Shown: positions 7,963 to 26,822 of the stretch, in pieces
How the letters are laid out: the number at the start of each line of letters is the position of its first letter
Position numbering within the stretch: the stretch's first letter is position 1
NCBI RefSeq assembly: GCF_003319125.1
Contig: NZ_QOHG01000006.1
Location: 186,001 to 250,000 of the forward strand
Direction of reading: 5' to 3'
Origin: Blastococcus sp. TF02A-26
GTDB taxonomy: Bacteria > Actinomycetota > Actinomycetes > Mycobacteriales > Geodermatophilaceae
Length of the DNA stretch: 64,000 nt
Position numbers and translations under genes: made by a program
The notes under the pieces: generated by a model
What the model was told of the DNA's origin: nothing
What the model saw: only the letters and a program-made list of their open reading frames with translations
The model's database searches: none

Positions 7963-7966
7963 CCCC

Positions 7967-10344: not shown

Positions 10345-10512
10345 TTACCTCGTCGGGCTGTACAGCGGCAGGTCGCCGATCAGAATCTCGGTGGACCGCA
10401 AGTCCGCAGGTGCGAGACGGATCAGCGAGCGGGACAAAATCCGGTTGATCGACGCGGAGAAAAGGCTCCCCACGAAGTAGCCCACCTCGTACGTGGTCTT
10501 CGGCTGTGACAT
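10345..10512 (-). pseudogene. Truncated NADPH-dependent FMN reductase (N-terminal fragment)
   Basis: The 55-codon frame begins MSQPKTTYEVGYFVGSLFSA and continues through NRILSRSLIRLAP to IGDLPLYSP before a premature stop. This is the first beta-alpha-beta unit of NADPH-dependent FMN reductases (SsuE/chromate-reductase type), including the phosphate-loop region GSLxxxSxNR. Full-length members have about 180 residues. The downstream sequence to 10233 no longer matches, so the rest is deleted. It lies in the roughly 400-bp gap between TerC and the universal stress protein, which otherwise shows no gene. Confidence 0.65.
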
Positions 10513-10627
10513 CTCGGTCCTCCGTGACCATCGGGTGCTCCTACGGCCTTGACTGGCGTGTCCGGCTCTGCAAGGTGTGCGATGGGGAAGACACCGCCCC
10601 GTCGTCGACCGGCAGGAGCACGACGCC

Positions 10628-11095: not shown

Positions 11096-11188
11096 CCGGA
11101 CCGCGCGGGCGGACGGCCGGGTCGACGGCGACCTGGCCGTGCCGGTCTGCGGCCCGTTGGCCGATCGACGCCGACGTCAGACTGCTAA

Positions 11189-12156: not shown

Positions 12157-12166
12157 TAAGCGCAGT

Positions 12167-13537
12167 TCAGCGCTCGCGCTGATCGAACGGCCCGTCCGAT
12201 CCGGCGGGGTACTCCTGGAGCGGAACCAGGTCCTTGGCCCATGCGTCGAGCACGGGTGTAACGACGCGCCAGGATTCCTCCGCTTCGTCACCGCGGATCG
12301 ACAGGGCAGGGTCACGGTGGAACACGTCCAGCAACAGCCGACCGTAGGCGGGTAGTTCGGCCGGTTCGAGTTCAGCGGCGAGGGTCAGCGGGACCAGCGT
12401 GTGCGCGCGGGCGCCGACGCCGGACATCTCGACGACGACGCTCTCGGGCTGGAGCCCGAAGCGCAGCACGTTGGGTTGCGGGTCGCCGCGCATGCCACGG
12501 GGCAGGTGCGGCACCGGCCGGAAGTGCACCGCCACCTCCATCCGGTTCCGCCCGAGCGCCTTGCCGGTCCGGAGCCGGAACACGGTGCCGCGCCAGCGCC
12601 AGTTGTCCAACCGGAGTTCCAGCTCGGCGAACGTCTCCGTCCGGTGGGCCGGGTCGACGCCGTCCTCCTCCACGTACGCAGGAACGGATACGCCGTCGAC
12701 GAGCCCGCTCGTGTAGCGGGCCCGACGTGTGTGACGGACGACGTCGTCGGCGCTCAGCGGGCGGATCGAGCGCAGCACGTCCACCTTGCGGTCCCGCAGG
12801 TCTCGGGCGTCGAGACTGATCGGCGGCTCCATCGCCACCAGGCAGAGCAACTGCAGCAGGTGGTTCTGCAGCATGTCCTTCAGCGCGCCGACGCCGTCGT
12901 AGTATCCGGCCCTACCCTCCAGGGCGAGCGTCTCGTCCCAGACGACGTCGATCTCCGCGATGTGCGCGCTGTTCCAGATTGGCTCCAGCACCCGGTTGGC
13001 CAACCTGGTGCCGAGGACGTTCTGCACGGTCGTCATGGCCAGGAAGTGGTCGACGCGGAACACCGATTCCTCAGGGACGACCCGGGCGAGCAGGGCGTTC
13101 AGCTCGACCGCCTGGGCGAGATCCTCACCGAACGGCTTCTCCAGCACGATCGAGCTCCCCTCCGGCAGCCCGGCACCGTGCAGCGCCGAGACGGTGGGGG
13201 CGAACAGGAACGGCGGAAGGGCGAGGTAGGCCGCGATCGGCTCGGCACCCCGGACTACGGCGCGCAGGGCGGCCGGGTCGGTGACGTCGGCCCGGTGGTA
13301 CTCGGCCGCCGACACGATCGCGTCCCGGTCAGCGGCCGGGAACTGCCCCCCGTGCTGACCGAGCTGGGCACGCGCCCACCCGCGGAACTGCTCGTTCCCC
13401 CAGTCCTCCCGGCCCACGCCGATCAGCCGGAACCCGTCGCCGAGGTGCCCGCCGTTGCCCAGCGCCGCAAGCCCGGGCAGGAGGTATCGCGCCGTCAGGT
13501 CGCCGGTGGCCCCGAGGAGGACGAAGCGCTCGATCAC
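12167..13537 (-). CDS. zwf: Glucose-6-phosphate 1-dehydrogenase family protein
   Basis: This 456-residue protein follows the G6PDH fold order: the N-terminal nucleotide site GATGDL (9-14), EKPFG (133-137), the catalytic region and a C-terminal domain with QNHLLQLL (His226). It would oxidise glucose 6-phosphate to the lactone in the oxidative pentose phosphate route, making NADPH. Oddly, the hallmark RIDHYLGKE reads RVDHFLAMT (161-169): the catalytic Asp-His are kept, but the Lys normally contacting substrate phosphate is lost. The Lys residues after GASGDLTKRKL are also missing. It overlaps the GH15 gene by 4 bp (ATGA). A divergent paralogue with altered kinetics or substrate is possible. Confidence 0.8.
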   Translation of the reverse strand: MIERFVLLGATGDLTARYLLPGLAALGNGGHLGDGFRLIGVGREDWGNEQFRGWARAQLGQHGGQFPAADRDAIVSAAEYHRADVTDPAALRAVVRGAEPIAAYLALPPFLFAPTVSALHGAGLPEGSSIVLEKPFGEDLAQAVELNALLARVVPEESVFRVDHFLAMTTVQNVLGTRLANRVLEPIWNSAHIAEIDVVWDETLALEGRAGYYDGVGALKDMLQNHLLQLLCLVAMEPPISLDARDLRDRKVDVLRSIRPLSADDVVRHTRRARYTSGLVDGVSVPAYVEEDGVDPAHRTETFAELELRLDNWRWRGTVFRLRTGKALGRNRMEVAVHFRPVPHLPRGMRGDPQPNVLRFGLQPESVVVEMSGVGARAHTLVPLTLAAELEPAELPAYGRLLLDVFHRDPALSIRGDEAEESWRVVTPVLDAWAKDLVPLQEYPAGSDGPFDQRER

Positions 13538-15360
13538 CTCCCCCTCCTCATCGCCCTGGCCAGGTTCACCCCGCTGGCGATCACTCCGATGTGGCTGAAC
13601 GCCTGGGGAAAGTTCCCGGTGAGTTCACCGCTCGACGGGTCGATCTGCTCCGACAGGAGGCCGAGCGGGCTCGCCCTGGCGCACAGCGACGCGTACAGCC
13701 CCTCGGCCTCATCCAGCTTCCCCTGGAGTACCAGGTTGTCGACGAGCCAGAAGCTGCACAGCAGGAACGCACCTTCGTCACCGGCGAGCCCGTCCGGGGA
13801 CTCGTCGTGCCGGTAGCGGTAGAGCAGGCCGTCGCCGGCCGACAGTCGCTCGGCGATCGCGGCGGTCGTGGCGACCATCCTCGGGTGATCGGCCGGGATC
13901 ACGCCGCGCAGCGGGAGCGCCAGCAGGCTGGCATCTAGGCTGTCGCCACCGTCGAGGTGCTCGGACAGGGTTTTCGCGTCCTCGTTCCACGCCCGCGTCA
14001 GGATGGTCTCCCGGAGATCGGCGGCCTCCCTCCGCCAGCGCGCGAGGGGTCCGGCGAGACCGAGTTGCTCACCTGTCGCCGCGGCCCGGTCCAGCGCCAC
14101 CTGGCACATGGCGGCGGAGTAGGTGAACACCCGGCCGCTGCTGCGCACCTCCCAGATGCCCTGGTCCGGCTGCCGCCACGCCCGGCCGGCGGCGTCGGCG
14201 ATGCCGCTCAGCCCACCCCACAGGGCGGGGTCGAGCCGGCCGCCCGCCTTGACCCACTGGTCCGCGCAGTCGAGGACCTCGCCGTAGACGTCGTGCTGGC
14301 GCTGGTCGGCCGCGCCGTTGCCCCAACGCACCGGCGCCGAGCCGCGATATCCCTCGAGCTCGACGTCCTCCCATTCGTCGGGGATCGGGTCGCCGGCGAT
14401 GGTGTACATGATCCTCGGCTGCCGGCTCCGCTCGAACGCGTCGAGGACCCAGCCGAGGTAGGCATCGGCCTCGTTGACGAAACCGATCCGGCGCAGCGCG
14501 AAGACGGCGTAGGCGGCATCGCGGACCCACGTGTAGCGGTAGTCCCAGTTGCGGATCCCCCCGACGGGCGCCGGCAGGGACGACGTCGGCGCCGCGACGA
14601 GCGACCCGTGCGCCCAGTGGTCGCAGAGCTTGAGCGTGATCGCCGCCCGCCGGACCATGTCCGGCTGCGGGCCGTCGTAGGAGAAGCCGGTCATCCACCG
14701 CCGCCACCCGTCGGCCGTCTCGGCGAGCCTCGCCTCGGCGTCGAGCGGGTGGTGCCGATGCAAGCGGCCCCACGAGAGGACCAGGTCGAGCCGATCGCCC
14801 TGCTGCAGGTCGTGGGTGCTCAGCAACCCGGGAAGCGGGCGATTGGACCGCAGGTGCAGCCGCAGTCCCGGCTGGCGGGCGCACTCGACGGCCAGGCCGT
14901 TGAACGCCGGGCGGGGCTGCGCGCCGCCGCGCGGCTGCACGGCGACGCGGAGCCGGACGTACCCGGAGAGCACCACCGCTGAGCGGACGAGTTCACCGCG
15001 GTCGGCGGGGGCATCGTCGGTGAGATCGGCCCCGGAGCGCAACGCCAGGGCGTCCGTGAGTCGCACGAGCCCGGTGTCGCTGCGCAGCTCGGTGATCAGG
15101 ACGCCGGTGTCCGGCTCGTATCGCTGCCGCGCCTCGACCAGCCGTTCCGGTACCACGATGAACGAGCCGCCGCGAGCAGAGTCCAGCAGTGAGCAGAACA
15201 GCGGTTCGGAGTCGAAGTCGGGGACGCACATCCACCGGATAACACCGTCGAGTCCGACCAACGCCGCGGTCGCTCCGTCGCCGATCAGGCCGAGGTCGGC
15301 CAGTGGCGGGTAGCCGTCGTGGAGCCGGATCGGCCGGAAGCCGGGATCGAGGTCGAGCAC
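13534..15360 (-). CDS. GH15 family glycoside hydrolase (glucoamylase/trehalase-like), intact
   Basis: This 608-residue protein has an N-terminal beta domain (PPLADLGLIGDGATAALV) and an (alpha/alpha)6 barrel with RNWDYRYTW at 270-278. The general acid is Glu404 in DQGIWEVR and the general base is Glu529 in GDEGAFLLCSFWLV. There is no signal peptide, so it is probably intracellular. Actinobacterial enzymes of this subgroup include acid trehalases and glucoamylases; substrate cannot be decided from sequence. It is an intact paralogue of the frameshifted gene at 2385-4315. The 4-bp overlap with zwf suggests that glucose released may feed the pentose phosphate route (inference). Confidence 0.86.
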   Translation of the reverse strand: MLDLDPGFRPIRLHDGYPPLADLGLIGDGATAALVGLDGVIRWMCVPDFDSEPLFCSLLDSARGGSFIVVPERLVEARQRYEPDTGVLITELRSDTGLVRLTDALALRSGADLTDDAPADRGELVRSAVVLSGYVRLRVAVQPRGGAQPRPAFNGLAVECARQPGLRLHLRSNRPLPGLLSTHDLQQGDRLDLVLSWGRLHRHHPLDAEARLAETADGWRRWMTGFSYDGPQPDMVRRAAITLKLCDHWAHGSLVAAPTSSLPAPVGGIRNWDYRYTWVRDAAYAVFALRRIGFVNEADAYLGWVLDAFERSRQPRIMYTIAGDPIPDEWEDVELEGYRGSAPVRWGNGAADQRQHDVYGEVLDCADQWVKAGGRLDPALWGGLSGIADAAGRAWRQPDQGIWEVRSSGRVFTYSAAMCQVALDRAAATGEQLGLAGPLARWRREAADLRETILTRAWNEDAKTLSEHLDGGDSLDASLLALPLRGVIPADHPRMVATTAAIAERLSAGDGLLYRYRHDESPDGLAGDEGAFLLCSFWLVDNLVLQGKLDEAEGLYASLCARASPLGLLSEQIDPSSGELTGNFPQAFSHIGVIASGVNLARAMRRGR

Positions 15361-15434
15361 CGCGGACCCTCCTAGAACTTGATGAGCACCTTGACCACGT
15401 CGTCGAGTTTTGTCTTCCAGGGGTGACAGCCCGG

Positions 15435-15986
15435 TCAGCGGCCGACCGCGTCGGCGGGCTCCGTGAACCTGTCCGGCCGGACGTCGGTGTAAGTGCGGAT
15501 CGGCACGGAGAGGGTTACCGAGCCGGCGTCGCGGAACTCGAAGGTGACCGGGACGCTGAAGCCGCTGCGCAGGGCCCCACGGAGCCCGGTCAGCTCCAGG
15601 TGGAGGCCGCTCACCTCGCGGAGGGCCGCGACCCCGCCGGCGGGCACGGGCACCTCCAGGCGCGGTTCCGCCTCCTGGTCGCCGTCCCGGAGGACGACCG
15701 CCTCGGCGACCTCGGCCGAGGCCCCGGTGAGTTCATCGTCGGCCTCGCCGCCGTTCGCGATCGTCAGCAGGAGAGCGGCGCCGTCCCCGGCGATGTGCAG
15801 GCTGCCGCGGGTCCCGGGGGACGCGACGGACACGCCGAGCAGCCGGAGGTCTCCTACCCGCCCGTCGACGCTGTCGAGCCCGATCCTGGCCCGGTCGAGG
15901 TTCGGCGGGTCGGCGCGCGCCGACGTGCAGCCGGCCAGCACCAGCAGGGTGAGCAGGGCCGCCACGGCGACTCCGGTGCGGTTCAT
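15435..15986 (-). CDS. LpqE/PCuAC-like lipoprotein (second copy)
   Basis: This 183-residue lipoprotein begins MNRTGVAVAALLTLLVLAGC, with the lipobox Cys at residue 20. The ATG at 15986 has GGAGGAGC just upstream, which decides the start over a longer frame. The core mirrors its paralogue at 4312-4911: LDSVDGRVGDLRLLGVSVAS, then PVPAGGVAALREV, HLELTGL and GSVTLSVPI. No Met/His copper motif is visible. It sits 17 bp after the antiporter gene and 74 bp before GH15 in the same direction, so it is probably part of the arc-zwf operon. Function is unknown. Confidence 0.8.
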   Translation of the reverse strand: MNRTGVAVAALLTLLVLAGCTSARADPPNLDRARIGLDSVDGRVGDLRLLGVSVASPGTRGSLHIAGDGAALLLTIANGGEADDELTGASAEVAEAVVLRDGDQEAEPRLEVPVPAGGVAALREVSGLHLELTGLRGALRSGFSVPVTFEFRDAGSVTLSVPIRTYTDVRPDRFTEPADAVGR

Positions 15987-16003
15987 GTCAGCTCCTCCGG
16001 GGC

Positions 16004-17479
16004 TCAGGTGGTGATGAAGCCGGTCCACAAGCCGACGACGCCGGTGATGCCGGCGGCCACGATCACGGCGCAGAGCACCATCTCGGTGGGGCTGAACAGC
16101 CGGCGGCTGTGCTCGCTGCGCGCTTTGACGTACAGTAGGGTGGCCGGGGCGAGAATCACCGTGGCCAGCAGCAGGAACTTCAGGCCGGCGGCCTCGAAGA
16201 GGAACAGCGTGTAGGCGGTGGCGATCCCCGCGATGATCGCCTCCTTCCGACGCGTCCTGGCGGTCACGTCCTCGTAGCCCTCCCCCGTGAGGCCGAGCTT
16301 CAGCGCGTACGCGGCGGTCAGGAAGTAGGGGATCAGCGCCAAACAGGTGGACAGATCGAGCATGAAGTTCAGCGCATCGGTCAGGACCAGCGTCGCGGCG
16401 AGGAGGCCCTGGACCGCCAGCGAGCTGACGACGAGTGCCGTGATCGGCGTGGCCTTGTCGTTCTCCCTACCCAGGAAGGCCGGGAGGTCCTCATTGCGGG
16501 CCGGGATGTACATCACCTCGGCCGCCATCAAGCTCCAGGCGAGGTAGGCGCCGAGGACGGAGACGATGACGGCCGCGCTGATGAACCAGCGGCCCCAGTC
16601 GCCGACGACGGACTCGAAGAGGCCGATCATCGACGGCTGGCGGGTCGCGGCAATCTCCGGCTGCGGCATCACCCCGTAGCTCGACAGCGTCACCAGGGCG
16701 AAGATCGACAGCACGCTCAGGAAGCCCAGGACGGTCGCCCTGCCGACGTCTTGGCGCCGCTTGGCGTAGCGCGAGTAGACGCTGGCGCCCTCGATGCCGA
16801 TGAAGACGAACGTCGTGATGATCATGGTGTTGCGGATCTGCTCGTCGAGCGAGCCCAGGTCGCCGTAGCCGGTGGCGATCCAGTTGTCGGCGAAGACGCC
16901 GGCGTCGAACGCCACGAACAGCACGACGATGAAGGTGAGGATCGGCAGAATCTTGAACACCGTCACGATGCGGTTGACGATGGCGGCGTCACGAACGCCC
17001 CGCGCGATCAGGTAGTGGAAGAGCCAGACACCGACCGTGCCGAGCGCCACCGCGAGGACCGTGTCGCCGTCACCGAACACTGGGAAGAACGCGCCGATGG
17101 TCGCCGTGATGAAGATCCAGTAGAAGGCGTTGCCGGAGACCGTGCTGGCCCAGAAGCCGATCGCCGAGTTGAACCCGACGTAGTCGCCGAACCCGGCCTT
17201 GGCGTAGATGAAGACCCCGGAGTCCAGCTGGGGCTTGCGGATCGCGAGGTTCTGGAACACGAAGGCGAGCATCAGCATGCCCGTCCCCGCGATCGTCCAG
17301 GCGATCAGCGATCCGAGGACGCCGGTTGCCACGCCGAAGCGCGCCGGCAGCGAGAAGACGCCCGCGCCGACCATGCTGCCGACCACCATCGCGGTGAGGG
17401 TGGGCAGCGACATCTTTCCCGGCGTCGCGACCGGGGCGTCGGCAACCGCGCCGGCAGCCCGTGGGGCCGTGTCGACCAT
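16004..17479 (-). CDS. arcD: APC superfamily basic amino acid antiporter (arginine/ornithine type)
   Basis: This 491-residue protein has about 12-13 membrane spans. It opens with the APC signature TLTAMVVGSMVGAGVFSLPARFG and contains FVFIGIEGASVYSRYAKRR, typical of the ArcD/LysI arginine-ornithine antiporter subgroup. It would import arginine in exchange for ornithine (or citrulline). The start is ATG 17479 with AGGAG 8 bases upstream; the longer open frame is basic and unlike the family. It lies with arginine deiminase in one minus-strand unit, which supports arginine as substrate. No arcB or arcC is present in the window. Confidence 0.82.
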   Translation of the reverse strand: MVDTAPRAAGAVADAPVATPGKMSLPTLTAMVVGSMVGAGVFSLPARFGVATGVLGSLIAWTIAGTGMLMLAFVFQNLAIRKPQLDSGVFIYAKAGFGDYVGFNSAIGFWASTVSGNAFYWIFITATIGAFFPVFGDGDTVLAVALGTVGVWLFHYLIARGVRDAAIVNRIVTVFKILPILTFIVVLFVAFDAGVFADNWIATGYGDLGSLDEQIRNTMIITTFVFIGIEGASVYSRYAKRRQDVGRATVLGFLSVLSIFALVTLSSYGVMPQPEIAATRQPSMIGLFESVVGDWGRWFISAAVIVSVLGAYLAWSLMAAEVMYIPARNEDLPAFLGRENDKATPITALVVSSLAVQGLLAATLVLTDALNFMLDLSTCLALIPYFLTAAYALKLGLTGEGYEDVTARTRRKEAIIAGIATAYTLFLFEAAGLKFLLLATVILAPATLLYVKARSEHSRRLFSPTEMVLCAVIVAAGITGVVGLWTGFITT

Positions 17480-17484
17480 CGCAG

Positions 17485-17739
17485 TCACTCCTGTCCTGGG
17501 GCTCGGCCGAGCGCCACCGGCTCGACCTTTTCGATCTTGAAGCCGACGACTCCGTACAGAACGCATAGCGCCGCGATCGCGGCGCATCCCACCAGAGCCA
17601 CCTGAAGTGGTCCGTCCAGCGCGTCGAAACCGAACAGCACGAGGGAACTTGCAATCAGGACCGCCAGGGCGACGAGGTCCAGCAGAGCATCGACGAGCAA
17701 CGTCGGCCGTCGCGCCGTCAGGACATCTCGCTCTTCCAT
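17485..17739 (-). CDS. Small two-span membrane protein of the arc operon
   Basis: This 84-residue product begins MEERDVLTARRPTLL. It has two hydrophobic segments (about 17-38 and 46-66) followed by a charged tail KIEKVEPVALGR. A GAGAGGGA ribosome site precedes the ATG at 17739. It lies between arcA and arcD, 5 bp before the arcD start, so it is co-transcribed. I do not recognise a family. By position it could assist the antiporter, but nothing in the sequence proves this. Confidence 0.6.
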   Translation of the reverse strand: MEERDVLTARRPTLLVDALLDLVALAVLIASSLVLFGFDALDGPLQVALVGCAAIAALCVLYGVVGFKIEKVEPVALGRAPGQE

Positions 17740-17864
17740 GGCGTCCCTCTCAATCGGGCAGCCGAGGCCCCGGACGCCAGGCTCGGTGACGGACTCACCG
17801 ACTGGTCTGACCGGAGCTCTCCTCAGTAGCAGCCGGACGGTGCCCGGCTCGACGAGCGATCGGC

Positions 17865-19139
17865 TCAGACGTCGACGGGGTCGCGGATGATCGGGCAGGT
17901 CATGCAGTGCCCGCCGCCACGACCCCGGCCCAACTCCGCGCCGACGATTGTGATCACTTCGATGCCGGCCTTGCGCAGCACGGTGTTGGTGTAGGTGTTG
18001 CGGTCGTAGGCGAAGACCACCCCTGGGGCGACGGCGACGACGTTGTTGCCGCTGTCCCACTGCTGGCGCTCGTTGGCGTACTCGTCACCCCCGGTCTCCA
18101 GCACCCGCAGCTCGGACAGACCCAGCGCGTCGGCGACGACGTCGGGAAAGGTCCGCTTCTCCTCGGTGACCTCGACCGGTTCCTTGTCGCCGGGCCGGAG
18201 GCTGAAGGTATGGATGCCGTCGACGATCTCCCGGTAGGCGGTGGCGACGTCACGGTCGGCGAAGGTGAACACCGTGTCCAGGTGCATGGCGGCCCGCATC
18301 TTGGGCATGCCGGCGACGATCACTCGGGTGGCGGCGCCGTGCTCGAACAGCGCTGCAGCGAGCTGGGTGATGGCCTGCCGGGAAGTGCGCTCGCTCATGC
18401 CGATGGCCACCGCGCCGTTGCCGATCGGCATGACGTCGCCGCCCTCGATGGTGGCCAGGCCCCAGTCCCGCTCGGGATCGCCCCACCACACCGTGGCGCC
18501 GGCGAAGTCGGGGTGGAAGGTGTAGATGGCCTTGTAGAGCAGCGTCTCGTCGTGCCGGGCCGGCCAGTACAGCGGGTTGAGCGTGAGCCCGCCGTAGATC
18601 CAGCAGGTGGTGTCGCGGGTGTAGAGGGTGTTCGGCAACGGCGGCATCAGGTACTCGCGGACGCCGAGCTGCTCCCGGGCGAGCGCCAGGTACCCGGACC
18701 GGAAGTCGGCGGGCAGGTCGACCGTGGCCAGCCCACCGATGAGGAGCTCTGCCAGCCGGCGGTCGTCCAGGGACTCGAGGAATGCCCGCGTCCCGTCGAC
18801 GAGCCCGAGGCCGACCTCGTTGGCCGTGACCTTGCGGTCCAGCAGCCACGCCTTCGCCCCGGGGATGGCCATCGTCTCGGTCAGCAGGTCGTGCAACTCC
18901 ACGACCTCGACACCGCGACTGCGCAGCTTGGCGACGAAGTCGAAGTGGTCCCGGCGGGCATTGTCGACCCAAAGGACGTCGTCGAACAGCAGGTCGTCGC
19001 AGTTGCGTGGTGTGAGTCGGGAATGGGCCAGACCCGGTGCGCAGACTAGGACCTTGCGAAGCACGCCGACCTCGGAGTGCACGCCGTAGGCGGCGACCGG
19101 CACGTCTGCGCCCGTCCTGGGAATAGTCGTATCGGTCAT
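17865..19139 (-). CDS. arcA: Arginine deiminase
   Basis: This 424-residue enzyme hydrolyses L-arginine to citrulline and ammonia. The guanidino-modifying fold is marked by [13 protein letters not shown] near the N-terminus, [23 protein letters not shown] in the middle and the C-terminal [20 protein letters not shown] with the nucleophilic Cys. The length matches bacterial ADI. ATG 19139 has GAGGAG upstream and overlaps the stop of the STAS-domain gene by 4 bp (ATGA). Ammonia release would raise pH. The usual partners ornithine carbamoyltransferase and carbamate kinase are absent here, so the ATP-yielding part of the pathway is missing or encoded elsewhere. Confidence 0.92.
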
Positions 19140-19603
19140 CGTCCGCGCGCTCCTCGCTTGAGAGAGGACCGGTGGCCACCGGACCAAGGCGGGACGAGGT
19201 GCCCCCACGGGAGGAGAGCTAGTTCGACGAGTCGCTCGACAGCCGCGGCTGTCGGAGGTAGATCGCCCTCAATAGGCTCGGACGCGCCGGCCGCCTTCGG
19301 TATTAGCGGGAGATGAGGCGTGGGGTTGACCAGCCGTATTCGGCACGCACGCGTGGTGGCAAGCGTCTGTGCGCAGACGGAAACCCGCAGCCCTTCATCA
19401 TCGCAGAACGAGATCGCGGAGCCGTCCACCGCGACGGTTGAATTGCCTGTGAGAGGCAGTACAGCCAGTGCATCAAACAGCCAACTGGCGCGACGGCGGT
19501 CGAGATCGCCAATGGGTCCGACCCACCCCGCGAGTGCATCCACCCACAAGACGCGGTGATCAAAGGTCTCGGCGGTGGGCGGCTGAGCAGTAACCAGACG
19601 CAT
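19136..19603 (-). CDS. STAS-domain-like protein upstream of arcA
   Basis: This 155-residue protein has a central pattern typical of anti-sigma-factor antagonists: a run of hydrophobic strands, [21 protein letters not shown] (compare VDLSxVxFxDSxGLxxLV), and a further strand CRIRLVNP. The usual phosphorylatable Ser is replaced by Asp-Glu in FCDDEGL. It overlaps arcA by 4 bp and would be the first gene of the arc operon. The start is ATG 19603 with a GGAGG site that is itself part of a hairpin. The role is inferred only; a partner-switch regulator of the arc genes is one possibility. Confidence 0.6.
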
Positions 19604-19610
19604 GAACTTG

Positions 19611-19627
19611 CCTCCGGGTGCCGGAGG
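19611..19627 (-). promoter_or_regulatory. Hairpin burying the ribosome binding site of the STAS-arcA operon
   Basis: On the coding (minus) strand the leader reads CCTCCGG-CAC-CCGGAGG, a 7-bp perfect stem with a 3-base loop. Its 3' arm contains the GGAGG Shine-Dalgarno sequence 8 bases before ATG 19603. Formation of the hairpin would hide the ribosome site. Whether it is regulatory is not known. Confidence 0.5.
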
Positions 19628-20233
19628 CCTAAGCCCTATCCGGGCGCTCCCGCACACAATGTATGTGCTGAACGGCCCGATGCTCGACCGATTTCACGGT
19701 AGAGCGGCAACCCCCGACGCGCAACTGGACGCGGCCAGCAGGTACCTGCCGCAACGCGTCCGATGATCAAGGCAGGACCGCGAGGGCAACCCCATACGTG
19801 CGATGACGTCGTGAACGCCAGCCCGCGACCGTGGACAGGATCACGACAGTGCCCGTGTGGCGGATCGACGGCAATCGCCTCCGCCTACACGCCACGCCAC
19901 GCCATCAGCCATCAGTGGCGTCCGGTGAGCAAGGTCCCCTCACGTATGTCATCGGTTCCCATGCTCAGCCGCTGCCCGTAGGGGACGGCCGTCCTTCTCA
20001 TTCATCACACGGTGAACCGCCCCGGGGCGGGACAGGCAGCGGGAATGCGGCTGCGGCGATCCAGCGGCAAGAGCCTCAACGACGACCTTGCCGAGGGGGG
20101 GCCACAGGCGGACACCCCTCCCAGGGGCTCCCACCGAGGCCTTCCACCGAACCGTCAGCAGCTCGCCATCCAACCCGTCACTCGCCCCCTACCCGACCGA
20201 TCGACCAGCACTGGAGATCTCCCCTCCCAATCA
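19628..20233. other. Gene-poor stretch upstream of the arc operon
   Basis: About 600 bp without a recognisable gene. It should contain the arc operon promoter near the right side of the STAS gene. Short frames on both strands (for example plus 19831-20370 and minus 19949-20173) show no domain, are rich in Pro/Arg/His and lack ribosome sites. It forms the left border of the integrated region. Confidence 0.4.
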
Positions 20234-20260
20234 AGATCACGAGCCGACACACCTCATGCA
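20234..20260 (+). repeat. Left inverted repeat (27 bp)
   Basis: Starts AGATCACGAGCCGACACACC. It pairs with 21021-21047 with two mismatches. A 7-bp hairpin (AACTCGT-GGTG-ACGAGTT, 20274-20291) and CTGCAG inverted half-sites (20293-20310) follow inside the element before the ORF. Confidence 0.75.
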
Positions 20261-20320
20261 CTTGCGGTCCTGGAACTCGTGGTGACGAGTTACTGCAGGG
20301 TCGTCTGCAGACTCTGTGCC

Positions 20321-20809
20321 ATGGGAACCATCGGAACCCCCGAGCACCGGGCCCGCCGCCGAGCTCGTGAGCAGCAACGGCGGCAACACGTCGCCCAGGC
20401 ACCGACCGTGTCCGCCGATGCAGAACAGACCGGCGCTTCGGCGGAAGGGCGCGAACGGCGCACCGCCGCGACGACCTGCGGATGGTGTGCTGGGCCGATC
20501 ACGCCGCGCGGCCGGGGGCCGATCCCCAAGTGGTGCTCGGCCACCTGCCGACACCGAGCCTGGGAGCAGACCCGCGCGGCGGCCTCCGGCCGATCCGCGG
20601 TGCAGGTGGTCGAACGGCGGGTGCAAGTCGGCGTCCCCCTGGAGCCGACCCGGCGGGACTGGCCGGCACTGCTCGGCGAGCTGACCCGGCAGTTGGACGA
20701 CGGCCGCATTTACGACCGTGACCTGCCCGGCCTCAGTCGGTCACTACAGCCCGTACTGGAGGCCTACCGCTGGCGGGCCGGCCGGACCGGCGCCCCCGAC
20801 GTGCGCTGA
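20321..20809 (+). CDS. Hypothetical protein with CxxC...CxxxC zinc-finger motif
   Basis: This 162-residue protein starts at ATG 20321. The N-terminal third is Arg/Gln/Ala-rich (EHRARRRAREQQRRQH). A compact cysteine motif lies at about residues 53-80: CGWCAGPITPRGRGPIPKWC then SATCRHRAWEQ, spaced C-x2-C-x16-C-x3-C, which suggests a single zinc site. The C-terminal part predicts helices and includes VQVVERRVQVGVP and a WPALLGELTRQLDDGRIYDRDLPGL segment. I do not know a characterised homologue; nucleic-acid binding is a reasonable guess from the zinc finger and basic tail. It is the only gene between the flanking inverted repeats. No strong ribosome site is visible. Confidence 0.6.
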   Translation: MGTIGTPEHRARRRAREQQRRQHVAQAPTVSADAEQTGASAEGRERRTAATTCGWCAGPITPRGRGPIPKWCSATCRHRAWEQTRAAASGRSAVQVVERRVQVGVPLEPTRRDWPALLGELTRQLDDGRIYDRDLPGLSRSLQPVLEAYRWRAGRTGAPDVR

Positions 20810-21020
20810 GCCGCGAACCTCCAGTTTTTCTCCAGTAGTAGCAGAAGACGACTGCGCCGGAGCACGTGCCCTGGAGAGCCGGTGCACCGAACCGCGGACC
20901 GATCGCACCGGCGTCGTCCGAGGTCGACGACGCACACAGACGTCACCCCATCTCCTGCTCGCTCAGCGAACCGCCCGAACCCAGCGCAGTTCTCGTCACA
21001 ACGGATTCGCTCGGCCTGGA

Positions 21021-21047
21021 TGCACCAGGTGTGTCGGCTCGTGATCT
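21021..21047 (-). repeat. Right inverted repeat (27 bp)
   Basis: Reverse complement of the left repeat with two mismatches (GG for CA at bases 22-23). It is followed by sequence unrelated to the left flank, so the repeat edge marks the likely element boundary. Confidence 0.75.
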
Positions 21048-21746
21048 GGCTGCGCGGCTCGGGCGGACGGGATAGGGGGAGGCAGCAGCACGGGCCTAGC
21101 AGAAGCGCTGCTCGGCCGGCGACCGTGGCGAGCGGCGCGGCCGGGAAAGCGAGCCAGCCTGCGGCACTGCAGTCCCATCCAGACGCCTGCACGGCCGCGT
21201 CCGTGGAGCCGGCCGCAGGCGAGGAGCCGAGCGGCCGGTGCGAAGCGCCCCGGGATAGCCGGTGCGCGAGCACGACCTGCACACGGTCTGGAGCGCCGAT
21301 GCAGCTCTGCTCTTGCGACGCCCGGCCTGGGCGCTGTCGACAGACCTGCTCCGCGAGTTCGTCCGGACGCTTGGCGACCGGGGCGTCCGATGCCCGGCCA
21401 CCGCAGCCCCCCGCAGGCGCGACGCCGTGCTGGCAAATAGCAGCCCATGGCGCCACGACCCCGCCCGAGCAGGCGCCGGTTCATGCCTTGGACGGGGTGA
21501 CGCCCACCGCCCTCCGGGGTGACACCGGGCGGTCACCTGCGTTCTGCCATGTCACCCCGGGCCGTCCCGCTGTCGCGGCCGGCCTAGCGGCCGCACGGAG
21601 GCCGCGGCCCCTGGCACACGAAGAAAACCGGAGAAAATCAGGAGATTGCCGCGGCAGTGTCACCAATCGGCCGAAAATGGCGCCTTCTCCAGGTGGGTTG
21701 CCGCGCCGAATGCCGGCGCACGAGGCCAGCCGACGAGGAGGGCGAC
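21048..21746. other. Non-coding or decayed stretch upstream of the excisionase, with clustered GTGAC repeats
   Basis: About 700 bp without a gene I can support. A GTG-initiated 86-codon frame (21262-21522, plus) has a tidy start (REHDLHTVWSADAALLLRRP) but ends in low-complexity residues and has no recognisable domain. Between 21496 and 21665 there are five GTGAC/GTCAC motifs in both orientations: GGTGACGCC 21496, GGTGACACC 21518, GGTCACC 21531, TGTCACCCC 21550 and TGTCACC 21659. These may be protein-binding sites for the xis/int control region. Confidence 0.4.
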
Positions 21747-22052
21747 ATGGGCCACGCGCAGCGACCTCGGGAGCCGGCGCCCAGCGAGCCGCTGCTGCTC
21801 ACCCCCGAGGAGGCCGCTGAGCTGCTCCGCGTCGGCCGCACCACGATCTACACCCTCATGAAGGCCGGCGACCTGCGCCCGGTGCACATCGGACGCAGTT
21901 GCCGCCTCCCCCGGGCTGAGCTCGAGCGCTACGTCCGAGGGCTCGAGGCTCCCGCGCCGAGCGCGCCGGCTCACCCGCGCCGGCACCGGCGAACCAGCAC
22001 GAGTCAGCGCGGCTTGTTCGAGCTCACCTCCGACCCGGTGGAACGAGCCTGA
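21747..22052 (+). CDS. Excisionase / helix-turn-helix DNA-binding protein (MerR-like HTH_17)
   Basis: This 101-residue protein has the excisionase-type winged helix motif LLLTPEEAAELLRVGRTTIYTLMKAGDLRPVHIGRSCRLPRAELERYV at about residues 16-65. Such proteins bend DNA at attachment sites and steer a tyrosine integrase towards excision. ATG 21747 has GAGGAGGG upstream, chosen over an earlier ATG at 21657 that lacks one. The integrase starts 82 bp downstream in the same direction, the usual xis-int order of integrative elements in actinobacteria. Confidence 0.82.
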   Translation: MGHAQRPREPAPSEPLLLTPEEAAELLRVGRTTIYTLMKAGDLRPVHIGRSCRLPRAELERYVRGLEAPAPSAPAHPRRHRRTSTSQRGLFELTSDPVERA

Positions 22053-22134
22053 CCTGTGGATTCCCAGCACCACAGGTCAGCGCGCACCACGACACTCGAC
22101 GCCGAGTCTGAACCAGCGACGCAGGGAGCGACCG

Positions 22135-23334
22135 ATGACGGACGCCAAGGAATCAGACAGCACGCCCGCGCGGCGTCGACGAACGTTGGAGCAGAGGAAG
22201 CGTGCCAGCGGCGAGTCCTCCATCTACCAGGACGAGGACGGCCGATGGCACGGCTTTGTCTCCATGGGGAAGAAGGAGAACGGCCGGCGCGACCGACGCC
22301 ACGCCTCCGGCGCCAAGCGCGCCGACGTGGTGTCCAAGGTCCGTGCCCTCGAGGCCAAGCGGGACGCTGGGATGGTGGACGCGGCCGGCCGCGCACCCAC
22401 GGTCGGTGAGTGGCTGGACCACTGGCTGGACAACATCGCGGCGCGGAAGGTCCGCGCGCGGACTCTAGAGAGCTACCGCAGCACCGTGCGGCTGCACCTG
22501 CGCCCGGGCATCGGGCACCACCGGCTGGACCGGCTGCAGCCAGAGCACCTGGAGCGTCTCTATGCCGCGCTCAGCGACAAGGGCCTGGGCCCGGCCTCGA
22601 TCCTGCGCGCCCATCGGGTCCTGTCCCGCGCCCTGCGTATCGCCTCTCAGCGCGGCAAGGTCGCGCGCAACGTTGCCACCCTCGTCGATCCGCCTGCGGT
22701 CAGGCGACCCGAAACCGCCCTGCCGCTGACCGCGCCGGAGGTCAAGCAGGTCATGGCCGCCGCGCTGACCCACCGCAACGCGGCCCGGTGGACCGTGGCG
22801 CTGGCCGTCGGGTTGCGTCAGTCCGAAGCCCTCGCGCTGCGATGGAGCGACGTGGACCTGGACAACGGCACGCTGAGCGTCCGACGCGGACTGCACCGGG
22901 TCAGCGGGCGGGGGCTGATCTATGAGGAACCGAAGGCCGACCGCAGCCGCCGCAACCTGGCGCTGCCCACACCACTCGTGCAGGCGTTGAGGGCGCACCG
23001 GGCGGCCCAACTCGAGGAGCGGATCGCCGCCGGCTCGTTGTGGGAGGACCACGACCTTGTCTTCGGGCAGCCCAACGGCCGGCCAATCGAACGCAAATCG
23101 GACTGGCGAGCCTGGAAAGCCCTCCTCCAGGAGGCGGGCGTGCGCGAGGTCCGCCTGCACGACGGGCGGCACACGGCGGCGACCCTGCTGCTGTCCGAGG
23201 GCGTGCATCCGCGGGTCGTCATGGAGGTGCTTGGCCACGCACAGATGCGCACGACGACGGACACCTACAGCCACGTCATGCCGGCCCTCGGCCGGGACGC
23301 CGCGGACCGCATGGGCCAGGCGCTGTGGGACTGA
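22135..23334 (+). CDS. Tyrosine site-specific recombinase (phage-type integrase)
   Basis: This 399-residue protein has an N-terminal AP2-like arm-binding region (SIYQDEDGRWHGFVSMGKK), a SAM-like core-binding domain (TVGEWLDHWLDNIA at about 87) and a catalytic domain with the full set: Arg228 (GLRQSE), His342-x-x-Arg345 (LHDGRHTAA), His368 (LGHAQ) and Tyr378 (DTYSHV). All key residues are present, so it is probably active. It is paired with the upstream excisionase. The tRNA-Ala 3' end faces this gene 1.2 kb away. The attachment site was not identified with certainty. Confidence 0.92.
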   Translation: MTDAKESDSTPARRRRTLEQRKRASGESSIYQDEDGRWHGFVSMGKKENGRRDRRHASGAKRADVVSKVRALEAKRDAGMVDAAGRAPTVGEWLDHWLDNIAARKVRARTLESYRSTVRLHLRPGIGHHRLDRLQPEHLERLYAALSDKGLGPASILRAHRVLSRALRIASQRGKVARNVATLVDPPAVRRPETALPLTAPEVKQVMAAALTHRNAARWTVALAVGLRQSEALALRWSDVDLDNGTLSVRRGLHRVSGRGLIYEEPKADRSRRNLALPTPLVQALRAHRAAQLEERIAAGSLWEDHDLVFGQPNGRPIERKSDWRAWKALLQEAGVREVRLHDGRHTAATLLLSEGVHPRVVMEVLGHAQMRTTTDTYSHVMPALGRDAADRMGQALWD

Positions 23335-23350
23335 CGTGGTGCACTGCGTG

Positions 23351-23374
23351 TGCTCCGGTGGTTGCCACGCTGGC
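23351..23374 (+). repeat. Imperfect direct repeat copy 1, just after the integrase
   Basis: TGCTCCGGTGGTTGCCACGC plus TGGC matches 24475-24498 at 20 of 24 bases. It lies 16 bp after the integrase stop, where attachment sites are often found. It could be an att-site trace, but the match is too short and too GC-rich to be sure. Confidence 0.3.
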
Positions 23375-23512
23375 TTAGCGGCGGCGCTTCGCCTTGCCGA
23401 TAAGCGCATCAGACTCGCGAATCAGGCATCTCGAGTGGGCGAGTTGGCGGCTCGACGGTCGTAGAGGGCGTTTTCGACTTGCGCCCCCGCGGCAACCCGG
23501 CACAGCGCGCGC

Positions 23513-23869
23513 TCACCCGACAAGGTTGGCCAAGTCCAATTCGATGTCTTGACCATCCACCGTCACGACGATGCGTGGATGGTCGCCAGCGGCCGTCAAG
23601 TACTGCGTCAGCGTGGATAGGAGCATGTCGTGCTGACGCTCCAGGCGACTGATGACCGTCTGGGCCACCCCCATCTGCGTAGCCAGTGCGACCTGCGTCA
23701 GATCGGCGGCCTTCCGGATCTCTGCGAGACCTGCTGCGTGGACTCGGTCAGTATCGACCATCTCGGCCCGGACCTGTGCGGAGCGCTCCGCCACACCGGG
23801 GATGGCACGGGCCCGCGCCATCTTCTCCGCAGCGCGCTCGGCCCCGACGAACGTGGCCTGTTCACTCAT
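23513..23869 (-). CDS. XRE-family HTH antitoxin/transcription regulator
   Basis: This 118-residue protein begins MSEQATFVGAERAAEKMARA. The HTH lies at about 52-90: IRKAADLTQVALATQMGVAQTVISRLERQHDM. The C-terminal part (VVTVDGQDIELDLANLV) is typical of HigA/XRE antitoxins. ATG 23869 has GGGAGA upstream and overlaps the toxin stop by 8 bp, so the pair is co-translated. In such modules the toxin is bound by this protein, which also represses the operon. Confidence 0.82.
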   Translation of the reverse strand: MSEQATFVGAERAAEKMARARAIPGVAERSAQVRAEMVDTDRVHAAGLAEIRKAADLTQVALATQMGVAQTVISRLERQHDMLLSTLTQYLTAAGDHPRIVVTVDGQDIELDLANLVG

Positions 23870-24272
23870 CACTGTCTCCCTCGGTACGGGTGCGAAGCAG
23901 GTAGCTCTCGATAGCGGCGTCGGCCCGCGGCCCAACGCTGTCGTAGAAGACATCGCCCATGCGGGCCTTGTCGGCGCCGAACAACACCAGGACGACCTCG
24001 CCGGGGCGATCGGGCGGAAACCAGACGATCAAGCGGATCGCGGTACCAGGGCTGAAGGGATGGGCCACCCGCCAGACCTGGTGGCGGCGCGACTGGTGAA
24101 CCCGGCGCAGCGTCGGCGTGTCCGCATCCGGTACAGCTGTGAGTTCTTGCAGGACGCCGAGCTCGGCGTCGACGAGTGCGAGCTGCTCCAACGAACGTTC
24201 ATCACCACCTACGGCGCGCTCGATCAACTGGTCGTACCAGCGATCGAACTCGCCGGTCCAGTCGATCAACAC
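23862..24272 (-). CDS. RelE/HigB-like toxin
   Basis: This 136-residue protein begins MLIDWTGEFDRWYDQLIERA (GTG start). It has the pattern of type II RelE/ParE toxins: an N-terminal helical part, a basic central stretch HQSRRHQVWRVAHPF, then strands IRLIVWFPP and VVLVLFGADKARMGDVFYDSV. Members usually cleave mRNA at the ribosome; activity here is inferred. The GTG is only about 6 bases from a TATATT -10-like box, so the mRNA is probably leaderless. Toxin-first order is the HigBA type. Confidence 0.72.
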   Translation of the reverse strand: MLIDWTGEFDRWYDQLIERAVGGDERSLEQLALVDAELGVLQELTAVPDADTPTLRRVHQSRRHQVWRVAHPFSPGTAIRLIVWFPPDRPGEVVLVLFGADKARMGDVFYDSVGPRADAAIESYLLRTRTEGDSDE

Positions 24273-24278
24273 GCCAAG

Positions 24279-24303
24279 AATATAACACGGTAGTACTAGT
24301 ACT
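24279..24303 (-). promoter_or_regulatory. Toxin-antitoxin promoter with 12-bp palindromic operator
   Basis: A TATATT -10-like hexamer (24279-24284 on the minus strand) lies 6 bases before the GTG start. Just upstream is a perfect 12-bp palindrome AGTACTAGTACT (24292-24303), which falls between the expected -35 and -10 positions. An operator for the XRE antitoxin is the natural reading. Confidence 0.55.
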
Positions 24304-24474
24304 CCAGCATACTCAGCGGGCGCCCCGGGTCCTCCCAGCCGGCAAGCCGGCTGATGACGGCTGTCGTCTCAACCCCCGACCGGGCTCCCACCCGCGCGAG
24401 TTGGGCGGGCAGAGCGCCGGGTGAGACGCGGCGACCGGATGGGACGCACTGTCTGCCTGACCCGACGCCGCATC

Positions 24475-24498
24475 TGCTCCGGTGGCCACCATGCTGGC
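24475..24498 (+). repeat. Imperfect direct repeat copy 2, beside the tRNA-Ala terminator
   Basis: TGCTCCGGTGGCCACCATGC plus TGGC is the partner of 23351-23374 (20 of 24 identical). The two copies enclose the toxin-antitoxin pair. Confidence 0.3.
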
Positions 24499-24512
24499 AC
24501 CAAACACGACTC

Positions 24513-24541
24513 AGGCCGTCCCTCCGGAGGAGGAACGGCCT
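24513..24541 (-). terminator. Hairpin terminator downstream of tRNA-Ala
   Basis: AGGCCGT and ACGGCCT arms enclose a CCTCC/GGAGG inner stem (one mismatched pair). It lies 12 bases after the tRNA 3' end in the direction of tRNA transcription. No U-run follows, as is common in actinobacteria. Confidence 0.6.
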
Positions 24542-24552
24542 GGTCATCGGGG

Positions 24553-24625
24553 TGGAGCTGAGGGGACTCGAACCCCTGACCCTCACACTGCCAGTGTGGT
24601 GCGCTACCAGCTGCGCCACAGCCCC
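24553..24625 (-). tRNA. tRNA-Ala (anticodon GGC)
   Basis: The 73-nt cloverleaf has acceptor stem GGGGCTG paired with CAGCTCC (one G-U), D-arm GCGC/GCGC, anticodon stem CCACA/TGTG(A) with loop CTGGCAG giving anticodon GGC (reads GCC), and T-arm AGGGG-TTCGAGT-CCCCT. CCA is not encoded. Its 3' end points towards the integrase region, the usual orientation for tRNA-targeted islands. Confidence 0.93.
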
Positions 24626-24718
24626 GTTCCCGGCCCCGGTCGAGTGCCCCTGAGCCGATGAGAACTGTACATCCCCCGCCGGAGGCCGACGGGGAGGGGG
24701 TCGGGGCGCGCCGTGGTC

Positions 24719-25132
24719 CTAGCCCTGCTTCAGCTGCGCGATCCGCAGGTGGTTGCCGAAGGGGTCGCGCAGGCCGAAGTCGATGCCGTAGGGCTGGTCG
24801 ACCGGCTCCTCGGTGATCTCCACGCCCTTCTCCTTGAGCTCGGCGTGGGTGCGGTACGCGTCGTCGCAGGCGAGGAAGAGGTGCCCGCCGGCCACACCCT
24901 TGCTGATCGCCTGGCGCACCTCGGCAGCGGTCTCCTCGCTCATCGAGGGCGGACCCGGCTTCTCCAGCAGGACCTGGCGGTCGGGCCGGCCGGCGGGGGC
25001 CACGGTGAGGAAGCGCATCGGCCCGAAGGCCATGTCGGTGACGACCTCGAGGCCGAGCTTGCCGACGTAGAAGTCGAGCGCGGCGTCCTGGTCGGGCACG
25101 TAGATCTGGCTGATGGTGATCCCGGTCAACAT
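24719..25132 (-). CDS. VOC/glyoxalase-family protein
   Basis: This 137-residue single-domain vicinal-oxygen-chelate protein shows ISQIYVPDQDAALDFYVGKLG at the N-terminus, GHLFLACDDAYRTHAELKEKGV in the middle and FGLRDPFGNHLRIAQL at the C-terminus. These are the two beta-alpha-beta-beta-beta repeats of glyoxalase/bleomycin-resistance proteins. The exact reaction is unknown. The gene starts 21 bp after the AraC-type regulator in the same direction; this regulator-VOC pairing recurs in actinobacteria and suggests joint control. Confidence 0.85.
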   Translation of the reverse strand: MLTGITISQIYVPDQDAALDFYVGKLGLEVVTDMAFGPMRFLTVAPAGRPDRQVLLEKPGPPSMSEETAAEVRQAISKGVAGGHLFLACDDAYRTHAELKEKGVEITEEPVDQPYGIDFGLRDPFGNHLRIAQLKQG

Positions 25133-25152
25133 GCCGACGACGCTAGGGACCC

Positions 25153-25569
25153 TCACGCCTGCGGCGCTTCTCCGAAACTGCTCGGTCGCAGCCAGGCCAT
25201 GGCGAAGCAGGACGGCGCGGGCGGCAGCGGCCCGCGCCGCCGGTGCGCGGACGGCGACTCCCCCACCACGTCGCGGAAGACACGGCTGAAGGTGCCCAGG
25301 CTGGTGAACCCGACGGCCATGCAGATGTCGGTGACGCTGCGGTCGGTCGACCGCAGCAGGGACATCGCCCGCTCCACCCGCCGCCGCTGCAGGTAGCGGT
25401 GCGGGGTCTCGCCGAACACCGCCCGGAAGGTGCGGATGAAGTGGGCCTCGGACACGTGGGCGATGCGGGCCAGCGTCGGGATGTCCAGCGGCTCGGCGTA
25501 GGCGCGGTCCATCGCGTCCCGGGCACGCAGCATCCAGCGGTTGGTGTCCTCGCTGGTCCGGCCCACCAC
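25153..25569 (-). CDS. Short AraC-family transcriptional regulator
   Basis: This 138-residue protein consists mainly of the AraC DNA-binding domain. The first HTH is in IPTLARIAHVSEAHFIRTFRAVFGETPHRYLQRRRVERAMSLL; the second is SVTDICMAVGFTSLGTFSRVFRDVVGESP. There is no effector-binding domain, so it may respond to level or partner rather than a ligand. The gene directly precedes the glyoxalase-family gene. The C-terminal 20 residues are proline-rich. Confidence 0.83.
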   Translation of the reverse strand: MVGRTSEDTNRWMLRARDAMDRAYAEPLDIPTLARIAHVSEAHFIRTFRAVFGETPHRYLQRRRVERAMSLLRSTDRSVTDICMAVGFTSLGTFSRVFRDVVGESPSAHRRRGPLPPAPSCFAMAWLRPSSFGEAPQA

Positions 25570-25587
25570 GCCATCCCAGCAGGCGGG

Positions 25588-26352
25588 TCAGCCGACCTGC
25601 ACGCCCCGGTCGGCCAGCCAGTCGACGGGGTCGACGCGCCGGCCGTCCATGCCGCCCTGGTGCACCTCGAAGTGCAGGTGCGGGCCGGTCGACTGGCCGC
25701 GGTTGCCCAGCAGCGCGATCGTGTCGCCGGCGTCCACGTAGTCGCCGACCTCGACGAGGATCTCGTCCATGTGGCCGTAGACGGTGACGTCGCCGTTCTC
25801 GTGGAGGATGTAGACGGCCAGGCCGAACCCGCTGGCCGAGCCCGCCCGCAGCACCACGCCGTCGGCGGCGGCGTACTCCGGCGTGCGCATCGGCGCCGCC
25901 AGGTCGATCCCGTAGTGGAAGGTCCCCCACCGCGAGCCGTAGCCGCTGGTGAACCGCGCCCCGGCGACCGGCAGCACGGTCTTCGGCCGGGCGGCCTCCG
26001 CGGCGGCCGCCTCGGCCTGCGCCTCGGCCTCCGCCCGTGCCGCACGGGTGGCCGCGACCTCCTGGAGGCGGACCTGCGCCTCGGCCTCGGTGATGGAGGC
26101 CATCGGCATGACCTCCTGCGTCTCGTCGGCGATCCCGAGCTCCTGCTGGGCCGCGAGGACGCTGGTCGCCTCGGCTGCGGCCTCCGGCGGGTTGTGCAGG
26201 CCGAGGAACGCCGCACCGATGCCGCCGGCGACCAGCGCCCCGAGCAGGGCGGCCGGCCGCCGTGCCCGGACACCGCCGGGGGTCACGGCGCGGTGCGACC
26301 CGGTGGACGGGCCGCTCCCGGTCTCGCCGGCACGGGGAGGGGTGCTGCGCAT
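25588..26352 (-). CDS. M23-family peptidoglycan endopeptidase (LytM type)
   Basis: This 254-residue protein has an N-terminal basic stretch and one membrane/signal segment (ALLGALVAGGIGAAFLGL). A long Ala/Glu/Arg coiled-coil region (about 85-125) leads to a LytM/M23 domain with metal ligands in HYGIDLAAP (His, Asp) and GPHLHFEVHQGG (HxH), plus VYGHMDEI. All zinc ligands are present, so it may be an active cell-wall hydrolase acting outside the membrane. ATG 26352 was chosen because the longer frame to 26487 lacks family-like sequence. GTCAC repeats resembling an MtrA site lie about 70 bp upstream. Confidence 0.85.
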   Translation of the reverse strand: MRSTPPRAGETGSGPSTGSHRAVTPGGVRARRPAALLGALVAGGIGAAFLGLHNPPEAAAEATSVLAAQQELGIADETQEVMPMASITEAEAQVRLQEVAATRAARAEAEAQAEAAAAEAARPKTVLPVAGARFTSGYGSRWGTFHYGIDLAAPMRTPEYAAADGVVLRAGSASGFGLAVYILHENGDVTVYGHMDEILVEVGDYVDAGDTIALLGNRGQSTGPHLHFEVHQGGMDGRRVDPVDWLADRGVQVG

Positions 26353-26420
26353 GTAGCTGCCTGCTCCGAGGGGGGAAGAGCCCGCGAGGGCCGGATCGCT
26401 GGCGTGCTCATGCAAACACC

Positions 26421-26438
26421 CTGTGACCGATCCGTGAC
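26421..26438 (-). promoter_or_regulatory. MtrA-like direct repeat upstream of the M23 peptidase
   Basis: On the minus strand GTCACGG and GTCACAG occur as direct repeats with an 11-bp period (GTCACGGATCGGTCACAG), about 70 bp before the start at 26352. MtrA in actinobacteria binds tandem GTCACAG-type repeats and controls cell-wall hydrolases. The match is by eye only. Confidence 0.4.
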
Positions 26439-26822
26439 CCCCTGCACGGCGTGTCGGCGAGGACACGCGGACTGTGAGGTCCCACACGCCCCAGCAGTCT
26501 CGGTCCGGTCACATCGCGGCACCAACGGAACCACTCCGGCCGCCCGGTAGTTTGACTGTCCGAGGGGATGGGCATGGATGCCTTCCCGGCGTGGAGCCAA
26601 CGCGCCGGTCCGACGTCCCCGTCGGGCCGCCGATCCCGCCGGTGATCGAGGAGTCGCTCCTCGTCCCCCCAGTGGACAGCGGCTCCGACGTGAACCGATG
26701 ATCAGCTCCCCCGCTGATCCGCCCTGCGCCGTCACGGCGCTCGGCACCCGCCTGCGGGACCACCGAGTGGTGGACCCAACTGGAGGTCATCGCACCGACG
26801 AGAGTGAAGGAACGGATGCCGC
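26439..26822. other. Divergent intergenic region without a supported gene
   Basis: It separates the M23 gene (minus) from the mannitol dehydrogenase operon (plus). Short frames such as plus 26578-26826 have no domain. It presumably carries the promoter of the polyol operon; no clear -35/-10 pair was seen. Confidence 0.4.

Follow-up and report, generated by a model that had tools for sequence, protein, structure and literature searches.

The window analysed here, a 64,000-nucleotide stretch of the genome of Blastococcus sp. TF02A-26, contains a small zinc-finger gene (ZF; 20321-20809, plus strand) next to the genes for an excisionase and an integrase. The order is a ~59-bp site (site L; 20232-20290, plus strand), ZF, an inverted copy of the site (site R; 20991-21049, minus strand), xis, int and a tRNA-Ala gene. 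The xis gene (21657-22052, plus strand; start codon uncertain) encodes an excisionase-type HTH_17 protein (PF12728, 3.8e-16; TIGR01764, 1.8e-13), and int (22135-23334, plus strand) encodes the tyrosine recombinase of a tRNA-Ala island (PF00589, 1.7e-25; phrog_1, 4.2e-71). The tRNA-Ala(GGC) gene (24550-24625, minus strand) is the likely attachment site of the island. Two overlapping minus-strand ORFs, one with an HTH antitoxin-like domain, lie between int and the tRNA gene (23513-24272), and nucleotide alignment across them is found only in L008 and L010 among the compared loci (loci are designated L and genomes G).

The ZF gene is enclosed by an inverted repeat that was described in an initial annotation of the window. 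Its arms (20234-20260 and 21021-21047) are 27 nt long and complementary at 25 of 27 positions (93%), and they are the sole inverted pair of at least 12 nt reported in 19800-21500; in 60 dinucleotide shuffles of that segment the best inverted 27-mer reaches 22/27 and most reach 19-20. The inner blocks given in the same annotation are present as well, with GTGACGAG at 20282-20289 pairing with CTCGTCAC at 20992-20999 and ACTGC at 20292-20296 pairing with GCAGT at 20986-20990. So are the perfect 7-bp hairpin at the left end (AACTCGT-ggtg-ACGAGTT, 20274-20291) and CTGCAG, of which two copies lie within 20290-20320, and the interval between the arms is indeed free of any transposase gene. Judged by sequence, the two arms are copies of one dispersed site of ~59 bp (roughly 60 bases). 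Site L reads CAAGATC-N9-CACAC-CTCATGCAC-spacer-AACTCGTggtGACGAGT, with the CACAC core at 20248-20252, the right palindrome at 20274-20291 and a weight-matrix (PWM) score of 56.8, and site R, with its CACAC core at 21029-21033, scores 44.5. Genome-wide, the outer 21 bp with at most three mismatches occur in two places, both of them in the window pair; with a looser, two-block pattern a third one appears, at contig C10:1625. The same genome (G000) has a second ZF copy at C10:1625-2414 (L203), which is 48% identical and has a downstream site only, its upstream region not being conserved.

The ZF gene encodes a basic protein of 162 residues with a zinc finger and a C-terminal helical hairpin, as seen in the family alignment and an AlphaFold2 model. 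The finger, annotated as C-x2-C-x16-C-x3-C, is one residue shorter and reads C53-x2-C56-x15-C72-x3-C76. The ORF is a conserved gene, because cysteine, tryptophan and arginine residues are invariant in 37 aligned relatives and dN/dS is 0.19-0.39 (7 pairs computed). The invariant positions are C53, W55, C56, P69, W71, C72, S73, C76, R77, A80, W81, Q83, R85, A86, R99, W114, G128, Y131 and R133. The window protein matches no Pfam or NCBIfam family at its cutoff, and its best PHROG is of unknown function (1.2e-5). The AlphaFold2 model (mean pLDDT 73, pTM 0.34) has no significant fold match in the PDB; MYND fingers rank first (E 1.5), and a YacG chain is among the very weak matches (E 8.1). YacG-type zinc fingers have the C-x2-C-x15-C-x3-C spacing. 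ZF shares this spacing but differs from them in its basic N-terminus, its C-terminal helical hairpin and its lack of a Pfam match. A scan of genome contigs yielded 80 loci coding for ZF relatives, which come mostly from Geodermatophilaceae, a family of soil bacteria, and also from a Nostocoides and from metagenome bins labelled Propionibacteriaceae, Subtercola and others. ZF is present in 73 of 112 family genomes and has no match in plasmids. Among titles and the opening lines of abstracts, nothing was found on the site or the ZF protein.

The tRNA-Ala island has the features of a tRNA-integrated island, with the integrase beside the tRNA gene and the 3' end of that gene (24550-24594) recurring at the far end in related islands (L013:1937-1981, L162:8309-8353 and L164:11151-11193). 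The left repeat of the window island itself was not found within the 64-kb window. Integrases of other site-bearing loci are ~28-41% identical to the window enzyme, and a tRNA gene (Pro, Lys, Arg, Gly, Asn, Met, Thr or Ala), whose role in attachment is only putative, is present in 14 of the 54 site-bearing loci scanned. A tyrosine recombinase, detected with an HMM built from nine integrases, is present in 51 of the 60 loci of at least 9 kb, against about 3% expected per 10 kb. In the 52 loci where one lies downstream of ZF, it does so at a median distance of 512 bp. Long stretches of the island (1-24671) are 99.4-99.9% identical in three other genomes from two genera: G017 is 99.4-99.6% identical over 1-24671 and 77-79% identical beyond the tRNA gene, G012 is 99.9% identical over 3090-20264, and G065 is 99.9% identical over 2573-20264 and 93% over 20259-26502. 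Elsewhere in the window there is an IS5-type transposase (11282-12139) with the same DDE_Tnp_1 domain as the transposase of the L012 cargo insert. Cross-matches to other genomes also reveal a 372-nt stretch that is repeated at 72% identity (4376-4743 and 15511-15878), each copy sitting in a small ORF that reads, in translation, as lipoprotein-like and lies beside a glucoamylase-like gene.

The region 5' of the ZF ORF is conserved in most relatives. The consensus of 135 unique sites is CAAGATC-N6-ssaCACACsTCnTGCAyc-GGg-A-TCGTkGTGACGrGT, and its edges are sharp. A two-block weight matrix, which was trained on the same ZF loci that it scored, gives most sites 40-57, whereas base-shuffled loci reach 9.9 at most. 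A site lies just upstream of ZF in 70 of the 80 loci, four of which are outside Geodermatophilaceae (L081, L083, L085 and L087; scores 27-47). In L009 and L010, two of the ten loci without it, the site is interrupted by an IS110-family element. The inverted copy downstream of ZF is found in 15 of the 73 loci that extend 1 kb downstream, and the other 58 have no second copy within 1 kb. The initial annotation had proposed a mobile unit bounded by inverted repeats; these counts argue against such a unit, as does the usual position of ZF beside an integrase. Homologues lacking the repeats, which were named there, for conserved synteny, as a finding that would speak against mobility, are seen in part, in that most homologues keep one repeat copy only.

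The exact site pattern occurs in 58 of the 112 family genomes, with one match to a reversed control in all 112, and, among 346 genomes sampled across the phylum, in the window genome alone, none of the 345 others having it. ZF is present in 57 of the 58 site-bearing genomes versus 16 of the 54 genomes without an exact match (Fisher p 1e-15), and in the remaining one, G103, the ZF next to the site is broken. Reverse-strand coding of the repeat (a shared CxRCV peptide) was rejected because the spacing of the blocks varies from 9 to 13 nt and does not change in threes, and RNAalifold finds no base pairs in the 135 sites. A promoter for left-hand cargo was likewise rejected, on the near-random orientation of the genes at the left edge (65 pointing out, 54 pointing in and 7 with none, by crude ORF calls). 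The exact site is also present in three viral contigs; the score is about 19 for two of them and under the listing threshold of 18 for the third. Three human faecal scaffolds labelled 'Bacteriophage sp.' (L124, L125 and L126) carry ZF relatives and the site, and L125 has an inverted pair of sites at a similar spacing (874 bp). These records are not taken as proof of a phage origin because the neighbouring genes in L125 look, in translation, like a BTAD-type regulator and an IS3-like transposase.

Flanking sequences were compared for 152 unique sites. For mapping of the crossover, 26 sites interrupted by an IS110-family element and three with short flanks were dropped, leaving 123. Identical site pairs were counted once. 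Among the 123 sites, 26 pairs share the left flank only, 180 share the right flank only and eight share both. The 5' part of an SRPBCC-like gene (a reading of the translation) forms the left flank of L-type and c-type sites in nine loci, L023 and L165 have a DUF429 gene to the left of the site but differ on the right, and six c-type sites have a common right flank but not a common left one. In the 26 left-shared pairs identity is 1.00 through core position 7 and is at background at position 8 (0.54 vs 0.57). In the 180 right-shared pairs positions 0-2 are at background and position 8 is above it (0.76 vs 0.57). As read from these alignments, left and right flanks have been joined in new combinations at the site, and the crossover maps to the 5-bp CACAC (positions 3-7), within which it cannot be placed more finely because these positions do not vary. 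The limit is not perfectly sharp, since positions 10 and 11 stay above background in left-shared pairs (0.92 vs 0.65 and 0.69 vs 0.37) and position -1 is raised in right-shared pairs (0.62 vs 0.42). Independent events are also far fewer than pairs, since a single left-flank group (SRPBCC) accounts for 23 of the 26 left-shared pairs.

A single empty/occupied pair has both flanks at high identity. L021 has the arrangement X-site-ZF, and L012 has X-site-3.0 kb-site-ZF; the two agree at 82.8% over 157 nt on the left and 93.4% over 700 nt on the right, with 3,041 bp inserted at the core. The cores of the three sites are CACAC, CACGC and CACAC, with CACGC in the left site. The insert encodes an IS5-type transposase (DDE_Tnp_1) and a 523-residue ORF without a Pfam family. 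The SRPBCC-like gene lies directly at the ZF site in five loci and is separated from it by cargo and a second site in three; this set gives weaker support because the right sides agree at 64-72% only.

The orientation of the sites depends on what lies between them. After removal of 19 loci judged to be duplicate or overlapping, 39 intervals between neighbouring sites were counted. All 21 intervals that hold ZF have inverted sites, the divergent L125 included, whereas 16 of the 18 other (cargo) intervals have direct sites (p 0.0013); without two weak sites (L015:4220, score 24.8; L032:4844, score 26.0) the count is 14 of 16. L157 is the only cargo interval whose sites face inward, and in L032 the right site has CCAAG in place of CACAC. 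The cargo of L032 includes DarT and DarG (DarTG), and that of L157 includes DUF3644 (PDC-S19) together with a KAP/PifA-like protein. Further cargo is a STAND-type NTPase with an HTH (L042), an AAA protein (L036), a Pycsar-effector domain (L030) and HNH (L038). Ten cargo proteins were compared with PADLOC, of which two have no family and three have weak or HTH-level matches only, and the list is not an enrichment test because the proteins were hand-picked.

The site belongs with ZF in an integration module, site-ZF-(site)-xis-int, on islands of Geodermatophilaceae and some other Actinobacteria. The favoured explanation, held at about even confidence, is that it is a conservative recombination site with its own DNA-binding protein, similar in its working to integron attI/attC but not an integron. 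The evidence that points to it is comparative: unlike flanks joined at the site, exchange at CACAC, one clean insertion there and cargo mostly between direct copies. Two sites would recombine conservatively at the core, and a circle with cargo and one site would integrate at another site. CACAC lies between the imperfect inverted arms GATCACGAG and CTCnTGCAC, a layout like that of a tyrosine-recombinase core, the right-hand palindrome TCGTkGTGACGA may be an accessory site, and ZF would bind the site and assist or regulate the reaction. Candidates for the recombinase are the integrase of the island itself and an enzyme supplied in trans. Of the broader suggestion of mobility in the initial annotation, what is supported is a recurring mobility-associated site, a conserved basic zinc-finger protein and DNA inserted and exchanged at the site; the repeat-bounded unit is not supported.

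IS110-family elements offer another route to swapped flanks. An element of ~1.5 kb encoding a DEDD enzyme (PF01548, PF02371) interrupts the site at a defined point just before CACAC, and copies at the same point of different sites could recombine by homology and then excise precisely, leaving the site itself with some other role. The insertion point is the edge of the mapped crossover window, 26 of the 152 unique sites fall in the IS110 flank group, and of the 11 junctions listed, seven retain the left half-site, two adjoin a further IS110 remnant and the other two show no recognisable half-site. A second IS110-family element has inserted elsewhere in the L site, following the A block, in L010 (3500-4935) and in L009, two species with identical left and right junctions. 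However, the first element is found in only 19 of the 112 family genomes at E 1e-100, no match at that level was obtained in G003, to which L032 belongs, or in G022, to which L021 belongs, and the joint conservation of the whole site and ZF is left unexplained, making this origin unlikely. In L018 and L158, full copies at the site are directly adjoined by IS110 right-end remnants, a pattern expected if the element reinserts at its own junction. Reference titles in PMC11187229 record IS110/IS1111 targeting of attC and insertion sequences that target transposon ends or Xer sites. Because of this record, IS110 in the site marks a common mobility-associated target and is not proof of recombination.

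Two other roles for the site are each improbable. As an operator, bound by ZF or another regulator and controlling ZF and neighbouring genes, it would account for the palindromic right block and for the distance of 31-33 nt between the site edge and the first in-frame ATG of ZF in 63 of the 92 unique genes with a site (11 of the 92 have no such ATG within 120 nt). An operator fits poorly with left-hand genes that face away from and towards the site about equally, with cargo inserted at the core and with R copies that face the 3' end of ZF. Marginally less credible is that helper-dependent islands use the site as their origin of transfer or replication (oriT or nick site), where a relaxase or Rep protein would recombine it at the nick. 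Such an origin would agree with a site that is common to loci with different integrases, and the arm-GTGTG-arm layout of the site is one that we take to resemble a MOBV nick region. However, a MOBV origin was rejected since the cognate relaxase is almost absent (PF01076, the family searched, in 2 of 112 family genomes), and the seven window proteins that were scanned include no relaxase or Rep. A non-autonomous transposon that carries ZF and has the repeats as its inverted ends would fit the 21 inverted intervals but is very unlikely, as the right copy is missing in 58 of 73 loci, most cargo intervals have direct sites, CAAGATC, the conserved left arm, falls outside the mapped crossover point, and neither an empty site nor a target duplication for the L-ZF-R unit turned up in the flank comparison, which was not dedicated to that search.

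If a conservative recombination site with a dedicated protein is the right explanation, a zinc-finger family that is conserved and lacks a Pfam model gains a partner site. A wider proposal, offered tentatively, is a cassette-exchange system distinct from integrons, in which a ~59-bp duplex site with a CACAC crossover would work with a dedicated zinc-finger protein. On actinobacterial islands this protein may enable tyrosine integrases that are unrelated to one another, or a single recombinase acting in trans, to load anti-phage cargo and to swap it. How defence systems gather and swap on islands outside integrons is an open question, and a short site with an exchange point makes it testable. 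The site could locate new cargo, including unrecognised defence genes, and is a defined substrate for a recombinase hunt.

The closest parallel is the integron. Like attI/attC, the site is conserved and lies beside a platform gene, its direct copies enclose cargo, the exchange point is fixed (with one clean empty/occupied pair), and IS110/IS1111-type elements insert in it. The system differs in having a zinc-finger gene as its constant partner, and a simple analogy is opposed by the placement of ZF between inverted sites and of cargo between direct ones. In the window island, the integrase scores 44.2 bits with the integron integrase model TIGR02249, the cutoff of which is 265. Folding of single strands as in attC is not supported by four sites examined on both strands, seven of the eight z-scores being -0.78 to 0.42 and the bottom strand of window site L giving -2.36.

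In pdif modules the site is 28 bp long and dif-like, and its flanks are in opposite orientation. The present site differs from pdif in its length of ~59 bp, its layout and its cargo mostly between direct copies. Such modules (XerC/XerD) are reported to be bounded by short sites, to be moved by a recombinase in trans and to carry adaptive cargo (PMC9455709, PMC7399989). Modules bounded by short sites and adaptive cargo are common to both systems. Among tRNA-integrated islands, those of the tycheposon, PICMI and satellite type have a tyrosine integrase, xis, a tRNA attachment site and defence cargo, all of which are shared by islands of the window type. To our knowledge, no such cargo-exchange site occurs in those islands, and the window-type islands are set apart from them by a dispersed site for cargo exchange that is accompanied by ZF.
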